From the NCBI GenBank assembly GCA_009841145.1, contig VXMJ01000093.1:11982-75981 (forward strand): a stretch of DNA of 64,000 nt. The letters run 5' to 3'. A program made the translations under genes and the position numbers. This DNA is from Caldilineaceae bacterium SB0661_bin_34 (lineage in GTDB: Bacteria; Chloroflexota; Anaerolineae; Caldilineales; Caldilineaceae). The notes below the pieces were generated by a model that saw nothing but the letters and a program-made list of their open reading frames with translations, was not told where the DNA came from and made no database searches. Below, in pieces: positions 15,856-59,389 of the stretch. Numbering within the stretch: position 1 is the stretch's first letter; every line of letters starts with the position of its first letter.

Positions 15856-16377
15856 GGCCGTACCGGCCATGATTCGGTTGATGCACAACCTGTGACAACC
15901 CGTTCACAGTGGTTGCCGGGGGTGACGATGAACCGACTTGCATTCGTCTGACTGCCAGGCCGACCGGCTACAATTCCGGATGTAAGCCGAGTTGCCTGGA
16001 TGGTAGGGATTGGACCCTGGGCTTTCGCCTTTTCAGGCACCCTGTCCGTGATCTCCGGTAACCTGTTGTCCCCTGCCGTCCTGACCAGAACTCCGACAGG
16101 ATTTTCACCGCCAGTGCAGGCACGGCTCCGACCGAGATTAATCTGACGATCCTCTTTGTCCCGGTGTCAGCCCGACGGACTGGCGGACAGCGCCAGTGTG
16201 CCAAGGTTGCCCTGTTCGGTGGTCAGGCCCAGATTTTCTCCGATGGCTTCAGGAAAGCGGATCTCCGCCTCGCACTCCACGCGATTGTCGAGCTGGTCCC
16301 GCGCCGTGTCACGCAGGGCGTACCGGATTTCCGGCCGCCGTCATTGGATGGGCTCAAGGTGCTGTCCTCATCGAATT

Positions 16378-17838
16378 GGGGCTTATATACAATGGTTGAC
16401 ACCACGCATATCCGGTTCACGGGTCGCGGGAGTCCCTTTGGCTGGCCTTGCGACCGACCAGGGAGGGAGCGCTCCTCGCCGTGCAGCAGCCCCAGTCCCG
16501 CGGGCCGAAACGGGTACGGGCGGCAGTCCCGCCCGCACCAGGATGTTGATCGCCGCATTGTGGTCGGCGTTCGCTTGGAAACCGCAGGCTCCGCACGCGA
16601 ACACCGCCTGCGACGGTCGGTTTGACTTGGCGGTGTGCCCGCACTGGCTGCAGGCCTGCGAAGTGTAGGCAGGATCGACGAACCACAACTCGCCGGCCTT
16701 GTACTCGAGCTTGCGCTCCAGCTGTCCCCAGCCGGAGGCTAGGATGGCACGGTTGAGGCCCGCTTTCTGCTTCACGTTCTTGCCGGGGTTCTCGACCGTG
16801 CCCTTCGCACTCTTCGTCATGGCCTTGGTGTTCAGGTCCTCGAGCACGACGGTGTGGGCCGTGTCCGCCACCTTGCGGCTGATTTGGTGTGTGGCGTTGT
16901 CCCGGCGTCGGGCGCGCTTGCGCTGGAGTTTGCGCAGTTTCCCGCCAGTCCCGCGGCGGCGTTGGGAGCCCTTCTGCTGCCGGGCCATCCTGCGCTGGTA
17001 CCGCTTGATCTTCGCGTCCTCGACGGTCGTGTCGGGGAGGGCATGGACTTCGCCCGTGCTGTCCGTGGCCTGCCCCACGTTGCGGTCAACGCCGACCGCT
17101 CCGGTCTTCGCGGGCCGGTACACATCGGGGTGGTCTTCCGGCACCTCGAACACGATGTAGGCGTACCACTTCGGCTGCTTGCTCTCCGACTCCTGCCGTA
17201 CGCGGACGGTCAGCGGCTGGCCGTCGGCATACCTGCTGATGGGACCAAGACGCGCCCAGCCCATCTTCGGGATGTACAGGCGGCCGTCCTCGATGCGCAC
17301 GTGGGACGGGATGGTGAAGGCGGGTTGTATGTAGTGTTTGGCCTTGTACTGCGGACGCCCGTGATCCGGACGGTCCGGGTCGAAGAACGCGGCATAGGCA
17401 TCGCCCAGGTACTTGCAGACGTACCGGACGATTTCATAGTGGTAGTCCTTCAGCCACTCGTTGCCGGGTGCGTTTCGCAACTGCGTGAACCGCTTGCCCA
17501 GCGTGAAGAAGGTCGGATCACCCGGACCCTCCCCCGGCTTGCCGGACGCCTTCCATGTGCGGTAGTCCGTCTCGTGCCCGGCCAGCACGTGGTTCCAGGC
17601 GAACCGGCAGGCTCCGGCCAGTTGTTCGAGGTACTGGCCATTGGCCGCGGTGCCGGGATACAGGCGCACGCGCAGTGTCCGTATGACGGTCGGGGACTCT
17701 TGCGTTGTAGACTTGGGGATACTGGTCATGGTGTCGTCTTCACCGTGTCCGGTCGAGGGCCCGGTTCACAGTCGGGTCCTCTCTCTCGCATCAATTATAG
17801 CACAAGAATTCGGACGTCAACTATTCGATATAAGCCCC
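16378..17838 (-). mobile_element. TnpB-bearing element A with 23-bp imperfect terminal inverted repeats and degenerate 8-bp flanking repeat
   Basis: ggggcttatatacaatggttgac (16378 inward) vs reverse complement of 17816-17838 ggggcttatatcgaatagttgac (20/23); flanks atcgaatt / ttcgtatt (6/8). Confidence 0.75.
16383..17729 (-). CDS. tnpB: RNA-guided endonuclease TnpB (IS605 OrfB family)
   Basis: RuvC motifs GVDRNVG, VLEDLN, ADHNAA and zinc finger CSQCGHTAKSNRPSQAVFACGACG; uninterrupted 448 aa. Confidence 0.95.
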   Translation of the reverse strand: MTSIPKSTTQESPTVIRTLRVRLYPGTAANGQYLEQLAGACRFAWNHVLAGHETDYRTWKASGKPGEGPGDPTFFTLGKRFTQLRNAPGNEWLKDYHYEIVRYVCKYLGDAYAAFFDPDRPDHGRPQYKAKHYIQPAFTIPSHVRIEDGRLYIPKMGWARLGPISRYADGQPLTVRVRQESESKQPKWYAYIVFEVPEDHPDVYRPAKTGAVGVDRNVGQATDSTGEVHALPDTTVEDAKIKRYQRRMARQQKGSQRRRGTGGKLRKLQRKRARRRDNATHQISRKVADTAHTVVLEDLNTKAMTKSAKGTVENPGKNVKQKAGLNRAILASGWGQLERKLEYKAGELWFVDPAYTSQACSQCGHTAKSNRPSQAVFACGACGFQANADHNAAINILVRAGLPPVPVSARGTGAAARRGALPPWSVARPAKGTPATREPDMRGVNHCI

Positions 17839-18297
17839 TTCGTATTCGTAGTCGATGTCGTAGGCGTACGGCCGGGTCGCAGTAGGACAGACCTTCAAGG
17901 CTGCAGTGCCGCAGCTTTGAAGGTGCTCGCGCCGCCAGGCCACCCGTTCCTCTCCAGGCCGCGCGTGTCATGGCCAGGCGAGCATGGGGATGTCACTCCC
18001 GTGCGTGCTCATCCTGTGCGGAGGGCCCGTTCTACCTGACCGCAAATGCCTCCGAATGTGTCTCGAGAGGGAATGGCGTGAGGTAGTTCCCGACGGTCTC
18101 GGCCGGGTCCGTCGGGTTTCGTTGAACAACCCAATCTCGGTTCGGCTGTTGGTACCGCAGACCACGGCTGGGGCGGGAACCCGGAGGATGTTCGTCAGCA
18201 TCGCACCAGGAGATGTTGGAGAAGCGGTGACATCGGTGCACAGGAAGCCCAGTGGAGCGGTGATTGGGTCGGCAAGTTGGGTGTTTCTGGAAAGTAA

Positions 18298-19453
18298 TAC
18301 CAATCTAGCGTAAAAGAGGGACTTGGTGTAGGCTTGCCTGTCTCCCTGCCTGTCACCGGAGCCCTCCGCCATGGCCCGTCCCGCCGTCATTCCCTGGGCG
18401 GAGGCCGACACCGTTGAGGCCCTGCACCAACGTTACCTGGCCGAAGCCGACGGTGTCGTGCGCACGCGGCTGCATGCGCTGTGGCTGCTGCGCCAGCTGC
18501 AGGACGGCTGGACCCCCACGACGGTGGCTGCGGCCCTGGGGGTGCAGCGGAGCAGCGTGCAGCGATGGCTGAAGTGGTACCGGGAGGGCGGCCTGGAAAT
18601 GGTGTGCGGCCGGCGCAAGGGCGGCATCGGGAAGCCCTCCTACCTGACGCCGACACAGCAGGCACAGTTGGTGGCGGCGGCGGCCACGGGGCGGTTTGCA
18701 ACGGCGCAGGCGGTGCGGGACTGGCTGGAGGCCGAGTTCGGGGTGGTCTACACCCGCGACAGCCTGTACACGCTGCTGCCGCGGCTGGGGATCCGGCTGA
18801 AGCGGCCCCGGCCCCGGCACACGAAAGCCGATCCCCAGGCCCAGGCGACCTGGAAAAAAGGGGGCTCGGGGAACAGCTGAAGGCGGTTGGGTTGCAGGCG
18901 GGACAGGGGATCGTGTGGGGGGATGAGATGAAGCTGGGGCTGCGCGGCCAGGTGCGCCAGGTGTGGGCCCCGCGCGGCGTGGCGGTTTCCCAGGCCGTGC
19001 AAATCGGCTGGAAATACCTCTATGCGGCCGTGGCCATCGATCCCATGACGGGACAGCTGTGGTGGGCTTGGCAGGCGAACATGAAGGGCGCGGAGATGGC
19101 CCGCATCTGGGGCACCTGGGCCCGGGAGCCGGCCATCGACGGCTGGGTCTGGGACGGGGCCCGCGGCCACACGGGCGAGGACATGCAGGCCGTGGACGCA
19201 CCCCAAGTGGTGCAGCCGCCCTATGCCCCCGAGCTGAACCCGGTCGAGCGCTTCTTCCGGGAGTTGCGGCGGGCCATCGAGGGCCGGGTCTATCCGACCC
19301 TGCAGGCCAAGCAGGACGCGCTGGAACCGATCCTGGAGGCGTGGCAGGCGGACCCCAAGCGGGTGCGACAACTGTGTGGCTGGGACTGGATCCGGGAGGC
19401 CTTGGAGGCTCTGCCCGCCAACACTCAAGTCGCATAGCCATACTGGATTGGTA
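18298..19453 (+). mobile_element. IS630-family insertion sequence
   Basis: Ends taccaatctag (left) and ctggattggta (right) flanked by TA; two overlapping transposase ORFs. Confidence 0.85.
18371..19437 (+). CDS. IS630 transposase, two reading frames joined by probable -1 frameshift at A6 (about 18855)
   Basis: ORF1 MARPAVIPWAEADTVEALHQRYL...(HTH); ORF2 LGEQLKAVGLQAGQGIVWGDEMKLGL...VVQPPYAPELNPVERFFRELRRAIEGRVYPTLQ (DDE). Confidence 0.9.
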
Positions 19454-59342: not shown

Positions 59343-59389
59343 AAATGTGTTTTGCCTCCCGTAGCTCGATTGTAGCAAAGGAAAACAAC

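Follow-up and report, generated by a model that had tools for sequence, protein, structure and literature searches.

A window of 64,000 nucleotides from the genome of Caldilineaceae bacterium SB0661_bin_34 contained two tnpB transposons, Element A and Element B. Element A probably belongs to a family of non-autonomous transposons whose sole cargo is tnpB with its guide RNA and which an IS1595-family DDE transposase mobilises in trans; their TnpB would cut the unoccupied allele. The sequence features that carry this reading are: IS1595-type ends with 8-bp target duplications; an IS1595 transposon with matching ends; a motif found on one side of the insertions; and a predicted guide-RNA helix formed with the terminal inverted repeat (TIR).

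Element A occupied positions 16378..17838 of the window on the minus strand (1,461 bp), with boundaries common to seven copies in its own genome and to many copies in congeners. Its ends, GGGGCTTATATACAATGGTTGAC and GGGGCTTATATCGAATAGTTGAC, were identical at 20 of 23 positions by direct reading. The TIR at the tnpB 3' end (16378..16400, plus strand) doubles, when read in the tnpB sense, as the 3' terminus of the predicted guide-RNA scaffold; the TIR at the tnpB 5' end, again by direct reading, lay at 17816..17838 (minus strand). The target duplication was found on the tnpB 3' side at 16370..16377 (ATCGAATT on the plus strand, AATTCGAT in the tnpB sense) and on the tnpB 5' side at 17839..17846 (TTCGTATT on the plus strand, AATACGAA in the tnpB sense). 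The two octamers matched at 6/8, representing a decayed duplication. A sequence-only reading had reported a TIR and octamer architecture at 16370-17846, a span corresponding to the element plus both octamers; its values for end identity and octamer match were reproduced, as was its placement of the stop codon in the TIR. That reading did not extend to IS1595 as the mobilising family, to the motif on one side of the duplication or to the TIR-containing guide RNA. The motif GGGNNTTAYAT occurred four times in the window, exactly once at each end of Element A and of Element B (chance expectation: mean 0.38, largest shuffle 3).

The tnpB gene of Element A (16383..17729, minus strand; 448 aa) was the only frame filling the 1,461 bp, and no Y1, serine or IS1595 transposase gene lay inside. 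Its TAA stop codon (minus strand, 16383-16385) fell within the TIR, 5 bp from the element end. In profile searches the protein matched Pfam PF07282, PF01385 and PF12323 and NCBIfam NF040570. Alignment to ISDra2 TnpB (8bf8) and a motif scan indicated that the RuvC D/E/D triad and the zinc-ribbon motifs were retained intact. Judged by triad, zinc ribbon and profile match, all of which were present, the protein is a member of the TnpB family, the ancestor of the CRISPR-Cas12 nucleases. About 500 bp past Element A, an IS630-like transposase was found split between two frames (18371-18880 and 18481-19437; 18371-19437 as a whole).

The seven near-full copies in the same genome (L001-L007; Element A and six others) were each 1,460-1,462 bp long and encoded proteins sharing 91-100% identity. 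The same ends were clear in six of the seven; the right end of L002 was degraded. Two copies had perfect 8-bp duplications (AAAGATCA in L003 and AATCAGTA in L006, both 8/8), three had 6/8 matches, and two had none. A central tnpB segment of a few hundred bp was practically identical in DNA among L001-L007, which diverged by several percent elsewhere; either gene conversion took place or the assembler collapsed the repeats. The own genome and three congeners also contained tnpB subfamilies A2, B, C and D, which had the same kind of end and different inner sequence, and GGGnnTTAyAT bounded the related tnpB subfamilies in all four congeneric genomes. All genomes were MAGs with repeat-broken contigs, and some ends were set by hand.

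Across the four congeneric genomes, 26 of 45 two-ended copies (including L176, at 8/8) had duplications matching at 7-8 of 8 positions, where the chance of an octamer match of at least 7/8, taken from mismatched flanks, was 0.004 per pair. About 40% of the two-ended copies had no good duplication, L002 and L007 among them; possible causes are decay, recombination between copies, or repeat assembly. Decay in place is shown by one insertion common to the own genome (L004) and the congener Plut_88876 (L050), since its duplication reads 6/8 in the former and 8/8 in the latter. The 6/8 match of Element A is weak taken alone and is settled by the other copies, which reach 8/8. An IS982-like transposase apparently lay within the 5' region of one related tnpB element (L126; G000:C42:1649), a nested insertion.

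TnpB loci with the same kind of end were also found in two proteobacterial MAGs. These distant relatives (L286-L295, reached via L081 and L085) had GGGAATTATAT-type or related ends, which suggests that the architecture has spread more widely; at L078 (Gammaproteobacteria) a TIR was looked for and none was seen. The earlier suggestion that A and B form a single transposon family was borne out, the same end type being present in A, A2, B, C, D and the proteobacterial loci. A search for family members without this end returned no such subfamily of this TnpB clade among intact copies.

Element B (59390..60992, plus strand; 1,603 bp; TIR GGGAATTACATACCTGACTAAGCACC) encoded a tnpB of 495 aa (59488..60975, plus strand). 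Its target duplication, AAAACAAC, was present as a left copy (59382..59389), preceded by GG at 59380-59381, and a right copy (60993..61000) matching it at 8/8. For an empty-site search, as the sequence-only reading had proposed, the flanks of Element B were joined with one octamer and then searched in congeners. Two congeners contained uninterrupted orthologous sites, each with no element and a single octamer. The inverted repeats are thus the true ends of the element, since the empty sites carry a single 8-mer. Nor is the inverted repeat internal to a larger element: the flanks differed at every copy, in agreement with the Element B empty sites.

Prokaryotic TnpB proteins have been described in IS200/IS605, IS607 and IS1341 elements (PMC3627910, PMC9956272). 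Element A has tnpB alone as a long gene-like frame, the classical IS1341 arrangement, and it could be read as an IS1341-type remnant left by an IS200/IS605 or IS607 element, its ends being inverted repeats by coincidence. This is extremely improbable. IS200/IS605, IS607 and IS1341 elements are without TIRs and target duplications (PMC3627910), whereas both recur here in dozens of insertions; such ends are absent from another TnpB-like family that is multi-copy in this genome; and the family-wide ends and duplications, together with the Element B empty sites, contradict a remnant. On the features tested, Element A does not belong to IS200/IS605 or IS607. The other TnpB-like family (L273-L281) was approximately 2.0 kb long with ends reading ...GGAACAG, had no TIR or duplication that could be seen, and may be IS607-like.

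An IS1595 transposase was suspected as the mover because the ends and the 8-bp duplications of the tnpB elements fit this ISXO2-like family, whose eukaryotic relative is Merlin. The IS1595 family is defined by 8-bp duplications and GG ends (PMC8101967). The tnpB elements had both 8-bp duplications and ends starting GG, and their TIR matched that of an intact IS1595 transposon in a congener (L134 in G003). L134 contained an intact IS1595 transposase gene (NF033547, E=8e-53; PF12762, E=3e-41). Its TIR, GGGGATTATATCGAGGGGTTGAC, was identical to the Element A end at 19 of 23 positions, and its duplication, TATGGTTT, was present on both sides at 8/8. It was a single copy, and its left end had a 3-nt difference. 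Directly behind a B-type end in the own genome (C33:69511) lay an N-terminal zinc-ribbon fragment of IS1595-like type; this fragment was spotted by eye, had no profile match, and was 82% identical in DNA to L134 over 65 bp. The family's ends, GGGGCTTATATACC, and a 7/8 duplication (flanks TTATCCTT/TTATCTTT) were also found on a MITE-like stretch that measured about 250 bp and lacked tnpB (L284/L114; G000:C33:11564).

Given L134, the fragment at the B-type end and the MITE-like stretch, the tnpB elements are most simply non-autonomous IS1595 passengers. They differ from IS1595 elements in carrying tnpB and a guide RNA and no transposase gene, and for want of that gene they are not themselves IS1595 insertion sequences. 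An IS1595-family (Merlin-related) DDE transposase likely moves them in trans. The own MAG had no intact IS1595 with matching ends, and its IS1595 copies on C100 and C20 were decayed and lacked matching ends. Among IS1595 elements of other genera in the class, most showed no clear ends or ends of the GGC type. Two solo A-like ends were considered as autonomous partners and rejected, a second end not being found: L045 (G000:C88:4846), beside a broken IS5/IS1182-like transposase gene, and L046 (G000:C100:137926), beside a Uma2-like gene. Sites of GGGATTTACAT in the genome were also rejected, being placed in unrelated sequence.

The flanks of the insertions were asymmetric. With flanks read in tnpB orientation (left being the tnpB 5' side, and the right side read as a mirror image), the base just outside the duplication (-9) was G at 64 of 71 left sides vs 16 of 70 mirrored right sides (Fisher p=7e-17; distinct insertions). 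Among elements with a target duplication (TSD) of at least 6/8, G occupied -9 in 27/28 left and 7/28 right sides (p=3e-8). Family-A left ends had C at -10 (27/32), G at -9 (30/32) and A at -8 (30/32). In Element A the corresponding CG next to the duplication on the tnpB 5' side was at 17847..17848 (minus strand), the putative TAM position (CG|A, with the bar at the duplication edge). The motif differed by subfamily: CG|A in A, mostly RG| in B, and NG|T in D. In the proteobacterial MAGs, which hold the distant relatives (35-40% identity), G was found at -9 in 6/6 left ends; their right ends were mostly missing because the contigs stop there.

In TnpB biology the TAM is the motif required 5' of the target (PMC8612924). 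We infer that the one-sided motif is the TAM of these TnpBs, set off from the element end by precisely one duplication length. This position agrees with a guide beginning at the duplication. Conservation was strongest at -9, outside the 8-bp duplication, so that the motif does not abut the left end, unlike in IS200/IS605. The asymmetry could instead reflect a target preference of the IS1595 transposase (G|W) combined with unequal ends, TnpB perhaps being an inert passenger. Such a preference is suggested by W-rich bases on either edge of the duplication, and in family A the inner parts of the two ends are unlike; this reading is nonetheless improbable. The two ends of C-subfamily elements differ from each other at 1/24 bases, yet show the same one-sidedness, and A and D have nearly identical outer ends, yet different motifs. 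The motif therefore tracks TnpB more than the transposase. In a small control of four IS1595-family elements, three of them from other genera with other ends, G lay just outside the duplication in 1/8 flanks, vs 27/28 for the tnpB elements. An inert passenger also sits poorly with a tnpB that is under purifying selection and has kept its catalytic motifs.

The 120-150 nt leading up to the right end were conserved and had a similar predicted fold in all subfamilies. The predicted omegaRNA scaffold of Element A (GGGACT...AAGCCCC; 16378..16499, minus strand) overlaps the tnpB 3' end and is based on the fold common to the subfamilies, covariation and lowered synonymous divergence. The scaffold predicted for Element B (GGGAAT...ATTCCC) spans 60844..60992 on the plus strand (z = -3.0). 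In the predicted closing helix an internal GGGnn pairs with the terminal n'n'CCC of the TIR, and the two strands covary: AC-GT, AA-TT, GC-GC, GA-TC and GT-GC. Over 25 distinct combinations the nn bases paired at 86% (0.86), vs 6-14% (0.06-0.14) with the partner slid by 1-3 bases, and the observed pairing was reached by 0/20,000 shuffles in a procedure that ignores relatedness. Thirteen family-A ends had one A.C mismatch in the closing helix, where an adjacent second GGGGCT can pair instead. The predicted fold of Element A uses this second GGGGCT and, with z=-1.7, is not strikingly stable alone. No family in Rfam matched the predicted guide RNA.

The final 60 codons overlap the predicted RNA, and in most pairs compared their dS was below that of the rest of the gene (for example 0.02 vs 0.16, 0.08 vs 0.29 and 0.20 vs 0.57). 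Outside the last 60 codons dN/dS was 0.14-0.46, by which measure tnpB is under purifying selection. The predicted scaffold appears to extend to the last base of the element, so that the guide RNA would include the right TIR. Because the scaffold would end there, the guide would consist of the duplication and about 12 nt from the adjoining flank. For Element A the putative guide segment, placed from this shared end of scaffold and element, is AATTCGATGAGGACAGCACC (16358..16377, minus strand; duplication plus 12 nt).

For Fanzors in DDE transposons, predictions assign both the TIR and the duplication to the reRNA scaffold (PMC10711439). By analogy with the proposal for Fanzor1s, the duplication could lie within the scaffold here and contain the TAM, the guide following after it. 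Within subfamilies the duplication is near-fixed at its first base or first two bases (the A in 30/32 family-A ends), and for IS607 TnpB a near-fixed right-flanking base belongs to the scaffold (PMC10711439). This arrangement is improbable in the present elements: bases -6 to -1 were variable or merely A/T-rich, the conservation peak at -9 lies beyond the duplication, and the closing helix stops at the last base of the element. The placement preferred here has the scaffold ending at the element boundary and the TAM beyond the duplication.

TnpB is thought to aid the persistence of IS605/IS607 elements by cutting the empty site. In the present elements, TnpB would process its own mRNA to yield an omegaRNA, the scaffold of which stops with the last base of the element. 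The nuclease would then cut an unoccupied allele, where a TAM (NG|W) is followed by the original 8-mer and the downstream sequence, and repair from the occupied copy would restore or spread the element. The element's own copy would be spared, because at the right junction the C of the TIR replaces the G before the guide match, and the left junction matches over 8 nt only. With the motif outside the duplication, an intact empty site would be cut, and a donor site left with two tandem 8-mers should escape. Since tandem octamers would escape and the empty site would be targeted, the system looks more like allele homing than repair of the donor joint. For ISDra2 it has been proposed that TnpB cleaves the empty site and that repair copies the element back (PMC8612924).

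Compared with IS200/IS605, IS607 and IS1341 elements (e.g., ISDra2), the present elements share a TnpB with RuvC and zinc ribbon, a guide RNA overlapping the tnpB 3' end (predicted here), and, as far as can be deduced here, a guide taken from the flank past the right end and a TAM located 5'. They differ in having a TIR, a target duplication of 8 bp and a motif that lies 8 bp off the element, where IS200/IS605/IS607 have Y1 or serine transposases and a TAM abutting the left end. In eukaryotic Fanzor1/Fanzor2*, a TnpB homologue was likewise captured by TIR/TSD transposons, some of them non-autonomous (PMC10711439). The host is bacterial here, with relatives in Caldilineaceae and Proteobacteria MAGs, and in contrast to Fanzor1, where the duplication is predicted in the scaffold, conservation here puts the TAM outside the duplication. 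Eukaryotic Fanzors seem to be the closest parallel, the present elements being a bacterial counterpart.

No prokaryotic precedent linking TnpB with IS1595, a DDE transposase, TIR/TSD or Merlin was found in the open-licence literature, and, as far as found, the empty-site trick for target-duplicating transposons has been raised for eukaryotic Fanzors only. These elements are probably bacterial RNA-guided DDE transposons, with TnpB on IS1595 elements, the right TIR in the guide RNA and the motif shifted outward by the length of the duplication. If true, they would extend the empty-site trick to bacteria and provide an example of DDE transposons capturing TnpB, a capture that an E. coli assay could test, as well as a source of TnpBs with short G-type TAMs and a case in which a transposon end covaries with a helix of the guide RNA. 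To judge from these sequences, TnpB seems to have adapted to a DDE transposon, and movement in trans by an unrelated transposase would explain some transposase-less tnpB genes.
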